In this document: one piece after another, positions 2,017 to 39,850 of the stretch
Numbering within the stretch: position 1 is the stretch's first letter
Layout: the number at the start of each line of letters is the position of its first letter
Assembly (NCBI RefSeq): GCF_023806485.1
Contig: NZ_JAMSLR010000011.1
Location: 1 to 64,000, forward strand
Source: Thermalbibacter longus
Lineage (GTDB): Bacteria > Chloroflexota > Chloroflexia > Thermomicrobiales > Thermomicrobiaceae
Length of the DNA: 64,000 bases
Direction of reading: 5' to 3'
The notes under the pieces: model-generated
What the model saw: only the letters and a program-made list of their open reading frames with translations
What the model was told of the DNA's origin: nothing
Databases searched by the model: none
Position numbers and translations under genes: made by a program

Positions 2017-2976
2017 CTAGTCGAACGAGATGCGCGGGTCGATCAGCGCGTAGACGATATCGACCAGCACGTTCACGATCAGGATGAAGCTACCCGCCAG
2101 CAGGGTGAGCGCGAGGATGACCGGGTAGTCGCGGCGCAGGATCGACTCGTAGGCGAGCGAGCCCAGCCCCGGCCATCCGAAGATGTACTCGACGATCACC
2201 GAGCCGCTGAGCAGGCCGGCGAGCTGGTTGCCGACGACGGTGACCATCGGGATCAGCGCGTTGCGCAGCGCGTGCCCGTAGATCACCGCGCGTTCGGGCA
2301 ACCCCTTCGCCCGCGCGGTGCGGACGTAGTCCTGCGAGATCACGTCGAGCATGCTCGAGCGCATGAAGCGCACGAAGATGGGGAGCACCGTCGTCGCCAG
2401 CACGGTGACCGGCATCACGTAGTGGGCGACCTTCTGGAGCCCGTGGGCGTCGGCCCCGGAACCGAACGCGGGGAGCCAGCCGAGCTTGACGGCGAACAGG
2501 AGCTGCAGCAGCAGGGCGATCCAGAAGTTGGGCAGCGCCAGGCCGAGCAGCACGCCGACCGTCGTCGTGTGGTCGAAGAGCGAGTAGCGCCGCTGCGCGG
2601 AGATCACCCCGATCGGGATCGCCAGCGCCAGCGCGACCAGCAGGGCCAGCCCCTGGAGCTGCACGGTCACCCCCAGGCGCTCGCGGACGAGGTCGATCAC
2701 CGGTGTCCGGTTGAACGTGTAGGCGGTGCCGAAGTCCAAGCGGATCACGTGGGAGGCCCACACGGCGTACTGGACGGGGAGCGGCTTGTCGAGCCCCAGG
2801 TTCCTGCGCACCTGCTCGACGAGCTCGGGATCCATCGCCTGCTCGGAGATGAAGGCGAGCGCGGGGTCGCCGGGAGCGAGGTGGATCAAGGCGAAGACGA
2901 CGATGCTCAAGCCGACTAACAAGAACGGCAAGAGCACGATACGGCGCACGATGTAGGCACGGCTCGCCGGCGTCAC
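2017..2976 (-). CDS. dppB: Peptide ABC transporter permease, DppB type
   Basis: Partner permease of the downstream DppC (319 residues). The first TM helix is followed by the conserved LAPGDPA motif around residues 34-40, typical of DppB/OppB. An EAA loop (VRTARAKGLPE) and the C-terminal VYALIDPRISF motif are present. It forms a heterodimeric channel with DppC in the membrane and takes substrate from the lipoprotein encoded upstream. The 97-base gap after the binding-protein gene suggests one transcript. Confidence 0.93.
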   Translation of the reverse strand: MTPASRAYIVRRIVLLPFLLVGLSIVVFALIHLAPGDPALAFISEQAMDPELVEQVRRNLGLDKPLPVQYAVWASHVIRLDFGTAYTFNRTPVIDLVRERLGVTVQLQGLALLVALALAIPIGVISAQRRYSLFDHTTTVGVLLGLALPNFWIALLLQLLFAVKLGWLPAFGSGADAHGLQKVAHYVMPVTVLATTVLPIFVRFMRSSMLDVISQDYVRTARAKGLPERAVIYGHALRNALIPMVTVVGNQLAGLLSGSVIVEYIFGWPGLGSLAYESILRRDYPVILALTLLAGSFILIVNVLVDIVYALIDPRISFD

Positions 2977-3073
2977 GACGCCGCCACCTCCGCTCCCGGA
3001 TCGGCCTCCGCGGCGCGGAGCGGGGCCTCAGGCCGGCTCGCCGCACCCCGCGCCGCGCTCGATGGTCGAACGG

Positions 3074-4858
3074 CTAGCTGCTGACCCGGTGCCACTCCTC
3101 CAGCCGCTCGAAGAAGGAGAGCACGGTGTTGACGTAGCCCTGGAAGTCCTTGGTGACCACGTTGATGAACGGGCGATCCCAGGCGTAGAACACCGGCACG
3201 TCTCGCTGGATCAGCTCCTGCACCTGCGCGTAGATCTGCTTGCGCTTCTCGACGTCGAGCGTGCGGCGGCCCTCCTCCAGCAGCTTGTCCATCTCCGGGT
3301 TCGAGTAGCCGGAGACGTTGCGGGGCGACTGGGAGTGGAACCACAGGTACAGCTCGTCCGGATCGACGGTCATGCTCGCGAAGGTGGGGCAGATCAGCTC
3401 GAAGGTGCCGTTGGTGCCCTCCTGCACTACCTGTGTCCACTCCTTTAGGTCGGGCACGCCTTCGAGGCCGATCTCGGCGAGCGCCTGCTGCGTGAAGGTC
3501 ACCCAGTCCTCGCGGAACTTGTTCCCCGCGTTGGCGGTGAGGCGCACGCGCAGGCCGGTCGCCCCGGCCTCCTGGATCAGTTGCTTAGCGGCCTGCGGGT
3601 CGTAGGGGATCCGCTGCAGGTCTTGCTTGAAGGCCCAGTGCCCCGGCGGCACCGGCCCGATCGCCGGCTTGCCCAGGCCGAGCAGGAAGTCGCTGGCGAA
3701 CCGATCCACGTCGATCGCCATCGCGATCGCGCGCCGCACCCGGGGATCGGCCAGCGCCTCGATGTTCTTCTCGCCGAAGTTCCAACCGTTGATGTCGACT
3801 CCCGGCGGCCGCACCAGCACGACCAGGTTCTCACGCGCCTTCAACTGGTCGGCGAGCGTCGGCTGGGCGTACATCGAGGCCTCGATCTCTCCGGTCTCGA
3901 GGGCGATGACCAGCGACTGGGAGTCGGCGATGGTGCGGTGGGTGAAGCCGTCCAGGTACGGCAGGCCCTGTTGCCAGTAGTGCGGGTTGCGCTCGGCGAC
4001 GAAGTCGCCGCCGATGTTCCAGCTCTTGAAGACGAACGGGCCGGCGCCGACCGGCTGCTGGAAGAACGGGTCATCGGTCAGGTTCTTGCCCTCGAGCAGG
4101 TGCTTGGGCAGCGGTCTCAGCCAGCGCAGGTTGGCCAGGAAGGCGGCGTTCGGCTCCTTGAGCGTGATCTTGATGGTCTGCTCGTCGACGACTTCGACGC
4201 CCTTGATCGTGTCGGCCTCGCCCTTGTTGTACTCCTCGGCCCCCTCGATGCCGATGAAGCGCGGCACGAACGGGCTCGCGGTCTCCTTCTTGAGGATCGC
4301 GTGGAGCGTGAAGGCGATATCGTCGGCGGTCAGCGGCGTGCCATCACTGAACGTGACGCCCTCCTGGAGGGTGAAGGTATAGGTCGTCTCGCCGTCGATC
4401 GTCCACTCTTTGGCGATGTTCGGCACGGGCTCGAGCGTCTCGAGGTCGAGCTTGAGGAACTCGTCGAAGAGCATGCGGGCGCGCCACTGGCCCTCGGTCT
4501 CGTTGGTCAGCAGCGGGTTGATGGTCTGCGCCTCGCCGAGCGTGCCGATGACGATCGTGCCGCCCCGCTGCGGCCCACCGGCCGCGGTGGGGGAAGCCCC
4601 GGCGGCCGGGGTAGGCGCAGCGCCGGTCGCGGGGGTCTGAGCCCCCGTCGGGGCCGGGGTGGTCGCTTCCGTCGCCTCTCGCTCGCTGACCTCGCCGCAG
4701 GCCACCAGCACTGGCAGCACGGTCGCGGCGGCGCTACCCGCGGCGATGAGGCGAAGGAACTGGCGCCGGTCGATGCCCTGCTCGGCGAAGTGCTGCTCAT
4801 AGCGCCGGAACTGCCGGACGATCGTCTCCGCTCGCTCGCGTGAGATTCGCTCTCCCAT
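3074..4858 (-). CDS. Peptide ABC transporter substrate-binding lipoprotein (SBP family 5)
   Basis: Extracytoplasmic solute receptor (594 residues) that hands peptides or similar solutes to the DppBC permease. The N-terminus carries a twin-arginine signal with R31-R32 in RRQFL, a hydrophobic stretch, and a lipobox LVAC ending at Cys54. A low-complexity Ala/Pro/Thr linker follows to about residue 100, then the family 5 fold. I chose the ATG at 4858 because AGGAGGAG lies 6 bases before it; an in-frame ATG at 4879 would put that ribosome site inside the gene. It follows the M24 peptidase by 72 bases, which supports import of a small peptide. The ligand is unknown. Confidence 0.93.
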   Translation of the reverse strand: MGERISRERAETIVRQFRRYEQHFAEQGIDRRQFLRLIAAGSAAATVLPVLVACGEVSEREATEATTPAPTGAQTPATGAAPTPAAGASPTAAGGPQRGGTIVIGTLGEAQTINPLLTNETEGQWRARMLFDEFLKLDLETLEPVPNIAKEWTIDGETTYTFTLQEGVTFSDGTPLTADDIAFTLHAILKKETASPFVPRFIGIEGAEEYNKGEADTIKGVEVVDEQTIKITLKEPNAAFLANLRWLRPLPKHLLEGKNLTDDPFFQQPVGAGPFVFKSWNIGGDFVAERNPHYWQQGLPYLDGFTHRTIADSQSLVIALETGEIEASMYAQPTLADQLKARENLVVLVRPPGVDINGWNFGEKNIEALADPRVRRAIAMAIDVDRFASDFLLGLGKPAIGPVPPGHWAFKQDLQRIPYDPQAAKQLIQEAGATGLRVRLTANAGNKFREDWVTFTQQALAEIGLEGVPDLKEWTQVVQEGTNGTFELICPTFASMTVDPDELYLWFHSQSPRNVSGYSNPEMDKLLEEGRRTLDVEKRKQIYAQVQELIQRDVPVFYAWDRPFINVVTKDFQGYVNTVLSFFERLEEWHRVSS

Positions 4859-4930: not shown

Positions 4931-6118
4931 TCAGACCGGGATGACCAGGCTCGCGAGGTCGCGCGGGTAGTATGTGATCATCTCGACGCCGTCCGGCGTC
5001 ACCGCGACGGTGTCCGAGTGGCGGAACCCGCCCAGCTCCGGGACGTAGATGCCCGGCTCGACGGTGAAGACCATGCCGACCTCGATGGTTTGCTGGTCGC
5101 CGACGTCGAGGAAGGGGGCCTCGTGGACGAGCGTGGACTTGGCGTGCCCGGTGTGGTGTCGCCAGTACTGCTCCAGCCCGTTCTCCTTGAAGAAGTCGCG
5201 CACCGCCTTGTCCACCGCCGAGCAGGGGATGCCGGGCTTGATGGTCTGGATGGCCAGGGTCTGTACCTCCAGCATCAGGTTGAAGAAGCGCTCCTGCTCC
5301 GGGCTGGGCTCGCCCATGATCATGGTGCGCTCCAGCTCGCAGCTATAGCCCCAGATGTACGCCGTCGCGCCGGTGACCAGGATGTCGCCGGGCTTGAGGC
5401 GGGCGTTGCTGGTCATGGCATGCGGCAGGGCCGAGTCCTTGCCGATTTGGCCGCGGAAGCCGGCCGAGGCCAACCCGCGGCCTAGCGGGCGGTATTCCGG
5501 GCCCAGGGTGCGGATCATCGCCTGCGAGGCCTCGTAGGAGGCGCGCATCGAGATCTCGGTCTCGGTGGCGCCGACGCGGCAGTACTCCTGGAGGTAGGCG
5601 TGGGCCAGGTTGGCCCAGCGGGCGCTCTCGCGCAGGAGCTCCAGCTCCTCCTCCGAGTTGATCATCTGCATGTACTCGATGTCGTCGGCCACGTTGACGA
5701 TCTCGGCCTCGGGCAAGAGCTCGCTGACCTTCGGGCCGCGATAGCCGTAGAGCTGGCCGTAGCCGTCGGAGTCGACGCCGATCTTCGCCCGGCTCAGCCG
5801 GAGGTCGACCAGGATGTCCTTGAGGAACTCCATCGGGTGGCGCAGATCGGGGTACTCCGGATACGAGACGATCCGGTCGGTGAGCGCGAACTCCTGGGCG
5901 TGCTCCAGCTCGAGGCGCGGCACCAGGAGGGCCGACGTGTCTCGCGTGAGCACGAAGGCGATGGGGCGCTCGGTCGGGATGAAGCCGAAGCGGCTGAAGT
6001 AGGAGACGTTGTTGGGGCCGAAAACCACCACTGCCGTGATGTCGCGCTCGCCCAGACGCTGGAGGATCGTGGCGCGACGCCGCAGGTACTCAGCGTCGCT
6101 CAGGCGCAAGCGGGGCAT
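4931..6118 (-). CDS. M24 (Xaa-Pro peptidase/creatinase-like) family protein with altered metal site
   Basis: A 395-residue pita-bread-fold protein with an N-terminal creatinase-type domain (about 1-150) and a C-terminal M24 domain. The usual five metal ligands are not intact: the first Asp aligns with Gly250, the second with Glu261 (in CELERT), His325 (HTGHAKS) and Glu354 (VEPG) are kept, and the last Glu aligns with Ser368 (RHSDT). It may therefore be a metal-independent creatinase-like hydrolase, or use a different ion. It heads the operon with the peptide importer, so its substrate is probably imported. Calling it a prolidase is possible but not safe. Confidence 0.85.
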   Translation of the reverse strand: MPRLRLSDAEYLRRRATILQRLGERDITAVVVFGPNNVSYFSRFGFIPTERPIAFVLTRDTSALLVPRLELEHAQEFALTDRIVSYPEYPDLRHPMEFLKDILVDLRLSRAKIGVDSDGYGQLYGYRGPKVSELLPEAEIVNVADDIEYMQMINSEEELELLRESARWANLAHAYLQEYCRVGATETEISMRASYEASQAMIRTLGPEYRPLGRGLASAGFRGQIGKDSALPHAMTSNARLKPGDILVTGATAYIWGYSCELERTMIMGEPSPEQERFFNLMLEVQTLAIQTIKPGIPCSAVDKAVRDFFKENGLEQYWRHHTGHAKSTLVHEAPFLDVGDQQTIEVGMVFTVEPGIYVPELGGFRHSDTVAVTPDGVEMITYYPRDLASLVIPV

Positions 6119-38500: not shown

Positions 38501-39037
38501 CTAGGCCGCTGAGGTCTGAGCAGGACGCTCGATCGCGAGCGTCGTCGTGATCGGTACCGGGTTGGTCAGCATGTCCTGAGCCGGGCAGAACCGTTCGACC
38601 AGATCAGCCAGCTCGCGTAGCCGGGACTCCGGCTCTGGACTGACAAGCCGGACCCGAGCCTCGATCTGGCGGAAGCCGGGGCGCACCGATGGGTCGAGGC
38701 CGAGAAAGCCACGCAGATCCAGCATTCCGGTCAGCTCGATCTCGATCGCGTCGAGCTGGATACCGAGCTGCTCAGCATAGGCAGCGTAGACGATCTCCTG
38801 GCAGGAGCCCAGCGCGAGCAACAGCAGCTCGACCGGTGTCGGCCCCTGATCCTCGCCACCGAGCCCTGGCGGCTCGTCGATCGTGATCGGATCGAACTCG
38901 CGAACCTTGCCGGTAACCCTCGTCCCACCCGTCCAGCGAGTCCGCGCCTGGACGATACCCTCCGCCATTGCCGGGTTCGCCAGGATCGCCGAGCTCAACG
39001 TGCGGATCGCGTCGATAACGTGCCCGTTTCTGCTCAT
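38501..39037 (-). CDS. OsmC-family peroxidase/redox protein
   Basis: A 178-residue OsmC/Ohr-superfamily protein with Cys79 in LALGSCQE and Cys151 in ERFCPAQDML, the thiol pair used to reduce organic hydroperoxides. The central PTPVELLLLALGSC helix is typical of the OsmC/YhfA branch. The ATG at 39037 follows AGAGGG. It is the first gene of OsmC-sulfurtransferase, behind a near-consensus promoter about 410 bases upstream. A role in sulfur or peroxide stress beside the methanethiol oxidase is plausible. Confidence 0.9.
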   Translation of the reverse strand: MSRNGHVIDAIRTLSSAILANPAMAEGIVQARTRWTGGTRVTGKVREFDPITIDEPPGLGGEDQGPTPVELLLLALGSCQEIVYAAYAEQLGIQLDAIEIELTGMLDLRGFLGLDPSVRPGFRQIEARVRLVSPEPESRLRELADLVERFCPAQDMLTNPVPITTTLAIERPAQTSAA

Positions 39038-39258
39038 CGTTTCCCTCTTTGCGCCTTCCTGACCGTGATAACGAAGCGCCGGTCGTGCAGCCCCGCCAGG
39101 TTTCCAGCGCATGGTAAGGACGCGAGATGCTGGCGCTGGCGGGCCGAATGGTTACAGGGTTCACCGGTCGCGATGTGGACCGCGACCAGTTCACGTTCAA
39201 TCAACTGGGCTTGTCGAGCACAAAGGGGGCTGACCAGGTCGCTCGATGGAGCGGCCGG

Positions 39259-39528: not shown

Positions 39529-39558
39529 TTGACACTACTGGGGGGACCATGATAGGCT
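39529..39558 (+). promoter_or_regulatory. Promoter of the 39.6 kb leader RNA
   Basis: TTGACA at 39529-39534 with TAGGCT at 39553-39558 (18-base spacer) reads rightward into the structured leader. The -10 is weak, but the same TTGACA/TAGGCT pair occurs before the recombinase gene. It is divergent from the osmC promoter. Confidence 0.5.
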
Positions 39559-39617
39559 CGAGGCGTTGATCGGTAGCCTGCTACACCGTGCAGGGTGGAA
39601 GGAGGTGATGCCCGGAT

Positions 39618-39665
39618 ATGAGTAGTGGTACATTGACGGGCGTCACCGTGGAGGTCACCAGCTAG
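39618..39665 (+). CDS. 15-residue leader peptide candidate
   Basis: ATG at 39618, 16 codons with TAG, encodes MSSGTLTGVTVEVTS: four Thr, three Val and three Ser in 15. GGAGGT lies 11 bases upstream and both it and the coding segment are part of the helices described for the surrounding leader. This design recalls amino-acid or ribosome-stalling attenuators. Thr/Val enrichment may be the sensed feature, which is inference. Confidence 0.4.
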   Translation: MSSGTLTGVTVEVTS

Positions 39666-39731
39666 CTCGCCTAGCCACAGGCGCGGTGAGCGCAATCTGG
39701 GACTTCTCGGTGAGCGCCCGAGAGAACCGGG

Positions 39732-39760
39732 AGCCGGCCATCTCCATGGGCCGGCTTTCC
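39732..39760 (+). terminator. Intrinsic terminator of the leader RNA
   Basis: AGCCGGCC (39732-39739) pairs with GGCCGGCT (39749-39756) around a 9-base loop, followed by TTCCGTTT. It lies 91 bases before the DUF1684 start. A further CCGCAGG/CCTGCGG stem follows near 39769. Confidence 0.65.
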
Positions 39761-39850
39761 GTTTGCCCCGCAGGCCGTTCACCTGCGGTATCCTAGCTTG
39801 CGGGTCTGGTCGTGGCGGCCCGCTGAGCTGAAGACGGATGGAGTAGCCCC

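Follow-up and report, generated by a model that had tools for sequence, protein, structure and literature searches.

A predicted stand-alone small RNA of the Chloroflexia in which the ribosome site of a short open reading frame may be gated by two competing folds

Introduction

The window analyzed here, a whole stretch of 64,000 nt from Thermalbibacter longus, contains on its plus strand (39529-39764) a structured element that is best explained as a stand-alone, usually single-copy small RNA, near-universal in the class Chloroflexia, which may act as a ribosome-gated mini-mRNA. This reading is given a probability of roughly 45%. Sequence comparison between genomes supports the element itself, both of its alternative pairings, the retention of a reading frame and independence from the genes downstream; its expression, the order in which it folds, its binding of the 30S subunit and its regulatory output are inferred.

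A scan with Rfam 15 at the gathering score matched no family to the element in the window or at 17 loci across the phylum, Chloroflexus included, in agreement with an earlier note on this DNA, which knew of no riboswitch or leader class that fitted. Weak Rfam hits to P15 and sX5 in the window were far below threshold and were discarded. Literature searches, whose reach did not extend to most subscription papers, found no description of the element. The Chloroflexi-1 RNA motif (RF01698), reported from Chloroflexus aggregans (PMC2864571), resembles it in being a structured RNA with a home in Chloroflexus and differs in that no Rfam family matched the element at the 17 loci. At one locus (L172) a T-box leader (2867-3109, minus strand; Rfam, 99.3 bits) lies near the element and is unrelated to it. 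It is rare for an RNA to be retained across almost an entire bacterial class and yet be absent from Rfam, and the present one usually occurs as a single copy.

Results

Architecture of the element

The window copy contains the following features, where SD denotes the Shine-Dalgarno sequence.

39529-39534 and 39550-39558, plus strand: promoter TTGACA with extended -10 TGATAGGCT, seen in the sequence and retained in same-genus and same-family copies
39584-39597, plus strand: small 5' hairpin CACC/GGTG immediately 5' of the SD, from predicted folds
39599-39609, plus strand: SD AAGGAGGTGAT, complementary over 11 nt to the 3' tail of 16S rRNA
39604-39614, plus strand: arm 1 GGTGATGCCCG, the second half of the SD, pairing with arm 2
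39618-39665, plus strand: 15-codon ORF MSSGTLTGVTVEVTS, with ATG at 39618 and stop TAG at 39663-39665, from sequence and comparison
39637-39647, plus strand: arm 2 CGGGCGTCACC, within the ORF, a mimic of the 16S anti-SD and partner of arm 1 or arm 3
39683-39693, plus strand: partial extra copy of arm 3 GCGGTGAGCGC in a genus-specific insertion, from the alignment
39708-39719, plus strand: arm 3 CGGTGAGCGCCC, conserved rival of arm 1 for arm 2, from covariation and duplex energy
about 39728-39764, plus strand: GC-rich, intrinsic-terminator-like hairpin AGCCGGCC/GGCCGGCT with a weak T-rich tail, from sequence and fold

Much of this layout had been described in the earlier note. The promoter that it proposed was found, both hexamer and extended -10, and the 11-bp helix that it drew over the ribosome site is exact (39604-39614 with 39637-39647), with a duplex energy of -21.1 kcal/mol for arm 1:arm 2. 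Its 15-codon ORF was borne out by the retention of frame and length across copies, and its intrinsic terminator corresponds to the hairpin at about 39728-39764, with a weak T tract. The alternative pairing partner that it named, GTCACC at 39654-39659, did not hold up, as this duplex is weak (-13.3 kcal/mol) and the other three species of the genus have GTCGTC in its place. Duplex energies in the window copy are -19.4 kcal/mol for arm 2:arm 3 and -12.7 kcal/mol for arm 2 with the partial extra copy of arm 3. The region as a whole folds better than its shuffles (z = -4.0; 0/200 shuffles as good). The 5' hairpin before the SD has weak comparative support, with 60% of cells paired in the single register tested. 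A generic promoter scan of the window missed the promoter of the element and reported nothing on the plus strand.

Two competing folds

In consensus form, arm 1 is the 3' half of the SD (GGTGATGCCC), arm 2 is GGGCRTCRCC within the ORF and arm 3 is GGTGAYGCCC after the stop codon. In an alignment of 99 copies arm 1 is nearly invariant and 97.1% of the cells of helix 1:2 are paired. Arm 2 changes almost only between A and G and between C and T, such that its pairing with arm 1 is kept by G-U wobble (U-A to U-G 42 and 30 times, G-C to G-U 22 and 8 times), and at the same positions the changes in arm 3 match those in arm 2 by Watson-Crick pairing (A-U to G-C 31 and 19 times, C-G to U-A 12 times). 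Helix 2:3 has 95.9% of its cells paired and double-sided changes in 8 of 11 pairs, counts that are inflated to the extent that the alignment was fitted to the 2:3 structure, and the small hairpin that it encloses, whose loop holds or adjoins the stop codon, has double-sided changes in all six of its pairs. The covariation score of the whole structure in this fitted alignment is 0.355 versus 0.026-0.047 in slid controls. The same picture was given by an unfitted MAFFT alignment of 18 copies (97.0% paired, four pairs with double-sided changes). Because arm 2 varies only where its wobble pairing to arm 1 is kept, and because arm 3 covaries with arm 2, both folds are, as judged from these patterns, under selection.

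The two states are close in energy. The median difference is 2.1 kcal/mol in favor of 2:3, which is the better state in 70 of 114 copies, in a comparison where the arm 3 picked automatically for the genus of the window was not the right one; with the correct arm 3 the two states of the window copy are at -65.8 and -67.7 kcal/mol. When the full RNA is folded to minimum energy, part of the SD often remains paired, hence an open SD is not guaranteed by the structure alone. In some diverged families (L201, L203) the two pairings use adjacent rather than identical bases of arm 2, which would permit a pseudoknot instead of a switch. L199, L201, and L203 have a longer arm 2, the 5' part of which pairs with arm 3 and the 3' part (CATCCCTCC, CATCACCTC) with the SD, and in these three both helices could coexist as a pseudoknot.

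The ribosome site and the short ORF

The SD (AAGGAGGTGAT) is near-invariant in the 99 copies, including its AAGGA part, which is not used by arm 2, and where it does change, rarely, A is replaced by G, so that a wobble pair with the 16S tail is retained. This tail, as read in a relative, is GGATCACCTCCTTTCT, and its match to the SD extends over 11 nt in the window and over 12 nt (AAAGGAGGTGAT) in many relatives. Since the invariance of the SD reaches into AAGGA, which arm 2 does not need, pairing with 16S rRNA is the simplest cause, and the ribosome is the likely partner of the element. AAGGAGGTGATG occurs 0-5 times per genome in 12 genomes. When followed by ATGAGT it was found in 42 of 399 genomes, and the matches that could be set against the covariance-model results (G546 lay outside this comparison) are the element.

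The ORF is 12-18 codons long in 130 of 132 copies, and ATG and arm 2 are in every case separated by a distance divisible by three, which takes five different values; codons 2-3 are about 67% AT. Stop codons are UAG in 92, UAA in 30 and UGA in 6 of 128 copies, versus 47, 29, and 62 of 138 neighboring genes; as the copies are related to one another, the p-value of this difference is approximate. The stop that is read by RF2 only, UGA, is thus avoided in the elements. These features suggest that the ORF is translated. Between ATG and arm 2 the synonymous fraction of single-base codon differences is 0.22 versus 0.18 expected, and the N-terminal residues look unselected, with no clear sign of selection. 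After arm 2 the fraction is 0.45 versus 0.27 expected, an excess compatible with some selection at the level of the peptide or with an effect of RNA structure. The peptides of the compared copies show no conserved series of regulatory (sensor) codons. In two copies the usual stop is gone (TTA for TAA in L194, where the stop is lost, and CAG for TAG in L232, which has 24 codons), through sequencing error or read-through.

Distribution in the Chloroflexota

A DNA search with the core of the element (39585-39666) gave matches in about 40 of 60 relatives, often on a different contig from DUF1684. A pattern scan of one genome per species (84,980 species) returned 45 stretches, all from Chloroflexota; three HR bins among them coincide with genomes of one family (f1) from the search of relatives, and Chloroflexus records are among the titled matches. 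A first covariance model (R1) placed the element in 135 of 158 Chloroflexia genomes, and in 88 of the 93 good ones, nearly always as one copy. A second model (R2) added one clear genome, to give 136 of 158, with a weak second match in that same genome. The earlier note had proposed such a search and had named a lack of conserved helices or ORF in relatives as grounds for giving up the idea; the 11-bp helix and the ORF proved to be conserved. Three good Chloroflexia genomes (G138, G153, G155) gave no match to the covariance models, and many of the other non-matching genomes are incomplete. The element-bearing genomes include what we take to be cultivable strains of Chloroflexus, Roseiflexus, Herpetosiphon, Sphaerobacter, and Thermobaculum. 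In one of them (G067), which we take to be Chloroflexus aurantiacus J-10-fl, the element occupies C1:1776728-1776833 on the minus strand.

Across the phylum, R1 matched 89 of 400 genomes and R2 96 of 399, most of them members of the class, and in other Chloroflexota the covariance models found the element in a minority of genomes, often in diverged form. E-values for the core, as conserved across the class, go down to 1e-28. Twenty weaker loci were read, and nearly all had the same layout, including those of family f34 (MDVSCKSRAASVRSR) and of the families with a shifted arm 2 (L199, L201, L203). Two low-scoring matches from outside the class (L200, L204) were discarded by eye, as they were without the SD and ORF layout. 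The sole match on a viral contig (L267), where the pattern lies just behind a polymerase-fragment ORF on an apparent phage contig, was taken as chance, and a viral home for the element was rejected. One locus (L080; G047:C533:5796-5949) carries two facing copies, at 5812 on the plus and 5911 on the minus strand, that overlap in the arm 3/terminator region as a palindromic duplicate.

Genomic neighborhood

The nearest downstream gene was defined as at least 120 aa and within 700 nt, and as genes were called by simple ORF picking, individual assignments may be in error. Of 100 distinct cases drawn from 123 distinct loci, 55 have this gene on the opposite strand and 45 have it on the same strand. 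Downstream families are scattered (n = 89), with L25 at 12, luciferase-like proteins at 7, PIG-L at 6, DtxR-type at 4, and DUF1684 at 3, and LysM proteins recur upstream (17/74). The ribosomal protein L25/TL5 gene, found downstream at those 12 of 89 loci (L177, L181, L185, L207, and others; convergent where read), is possibly the ancestral neighbor. In several genera of the same family the element is co-directional with DUF1684 and about 250 nt before it; it is also found in genomes where DUF1684 lies at another place or is missing, and in genus g2 the element is present and DUF1684 was not found. Because the gene that follows it changes from lineage to lineage and is antisense in 55 of 100 cases, the element is, on this comparative evidence, a stand-alone transcript and not the leader of DUF1684-pepA.

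Its own signals are consistent with this. Upstream of the SD, at a distance of 15-125 nt, a promoter-like pair is present in 88 of 126 elements versus 22 of 630 shuffles, and a terminator-like hairpin lies within 115 nt of the stop in 105 of 128 elements versus 30 of 640 shuffles. In the sequences read, arm 3 is separate from the terminator hairpin (39708-39719 versus 39728-39764 in the window). Between the terminator and DUF1684 the window has a promoter-like GGTATCCTAGCTTGC (39787-39801, with a -10-like TATCCT at 39789-39794), and because relatives keep it (GGTATCCTTGC), DUF1684-pepA probably has its own promoter. On the minus strand, a strong sigma-70-like promoter, TTGACA-17-TATACT (11/12; 39478-39450), is directed away from the element to the minus-strand gene at 38501-39112.

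Discussion

The earlier note had seen in this gap the layout of an attenuator or ribosome-sensing leader and had guessed that it senses amino-acid supply for DUF1684-pepA. A structured, ribosome-related RNA with a short and apparently translated ORF is what remains of the first proposal, as there is no conserved co-directional gene and the terminator shares no arm with the switch. The amino-acid guess falls with the antisense orientation in 55 of 100 cases, the scattered downstream families and the absence of a regulatory codon run in the compared copies. More generally, a cis-acting attenuator or leader of the downstream gene would account for the alternative pairings, the leader-like ORF, the terminator and the co-directional placement before DUF1684 in several same-family genera, but it is very unlikely given the orientation and variety of the neighbors, the lack of overlap between arm 3 and the terminator, and the separate promoter-like TATCCT of DUF1684-pepA that relatives share. 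That the element is an artefact of chance or composition, a GC-rich gap that happens to fold well, is of negligible probability: such sequence does fold easily and the generic promoter scan was empty on this strand, but neither accounts for the fold z-score, the conservation in 136 of 158 genomes or the strong covariation.

Two other explanations keep the stand-alone transcript and differ in what it is for, and both are unlikely. If the element were a micropeptide gene, the peptide of 12-18 aa would be the relevant product and the arms would do no more than adjust how well it is translated, as in other structured mRNAs for small proteins. Throughout the phylum the frame, start and stop are retained, the C-terminal codons have their synonymous excess, a pattern M-S-x(n)-G-[IV]-[TA] recurs, and a precedent is the 15-aa protein from Spot 42 RNA (a reference cited within PMC11188072). 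However, the N-terminal residues vary as though free of selection, G-[IV]-[TA] follows from the sequence of arm 2, with I/V and T/A swaps being exactly the changes that wobble tolerates, and the peptide varies in length and loses its sequence in diverged families (MDVSCKSRAASVRSR, MSSTQPSAVASPLATR). The alternative is a trans-acting, dual-function sRNA in which an arm pairs with mRNAs, ribosome binding and the ORF being secondary; arm 2, which is anti-SD-like in all clades (e.g., CATCACCTC, GACATCCCTCCT), could then block the ribosome sites of targets. A stand-alone RNA of about 150-200 nt with promoter- and terminator-like signals would suit such a role, but arm 2 is occupied by either arm 1 or arm 3, and there is no conserved single-stranded seed beyond the SD/start region, whose perfect partner is the 16S tail.

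The preferred reading, a ribosome-gated mini-mRNA, would work as follows. The RNA would be transcribed from its own promoter and end at its own terminator. During transcription, arm 1, as half of a very long SD, would first pair with arm 2 in the ORF and so close the ribosome site, and arm 3, made after the stop codon, could then take arm 2 and open the SD. A free 30S subunit would bind by 11-12 base pairs with the 16S tail and keep the RNA open, and the ribosome would translate the 12-18 codons and terminate at a UAG or UAA that lies between arms 2 and 3. Selection would act on the binding of the ribosome or on translation as an event, rather than on the peptide. As its likely output, the RNA would signal or soak up free ribosomes, or it would adopt one of two forms depending on the ribosome. 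A more far-reaching version, which we regard as doubtful, is that of a phylum-level device for measuring or holding free ribosomes, in which the 16S tail is the sole conserved partner, the ORF serves only to load and release a ribosome, and the two conserved folds convert the supply of ribosomes into a state of the RNA. Should translation itself, with no useful peptide, indeed be the function, the element would give cells a new means of sensing or buffering free ribosomes.

Several known systems share parts of this design. Attenuation leaders of the trp and erm types have a short ORF with an SD, mutually exclusive hairpins and an intrinsic terminator, and the element resembles them in its short ORF with an SD, its apparently exclusive pairings and its terminator. 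Unlike them it has no conserved co-directional regulated gene and no run of sensor codons, and its terminator lies outside the competing structures. In the mRNAs of type I toxins the SD is closed by a metastable hairpin and freed by later pairing, and a locked SD that is released by a later pairing is what the element would have in common with them; its peptide, however, is polar, 12-18 aa long and unconserved rather than a hydrophobic membrane toxin, and the element is near-universal and usually single copy. A stand-alone small transcript with an ORF of about 15 codons, as predicted here, is also the form of dual-function sRNAs such as Spot 42 with its 15-aa product (reference within PMC11188072). 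Spot 42 belongs to another phylum and has no sequence relation to the element, which has no known mRNA targets and in which it is the ribosome site that is most conserved and that would be gated by two conserved folds.
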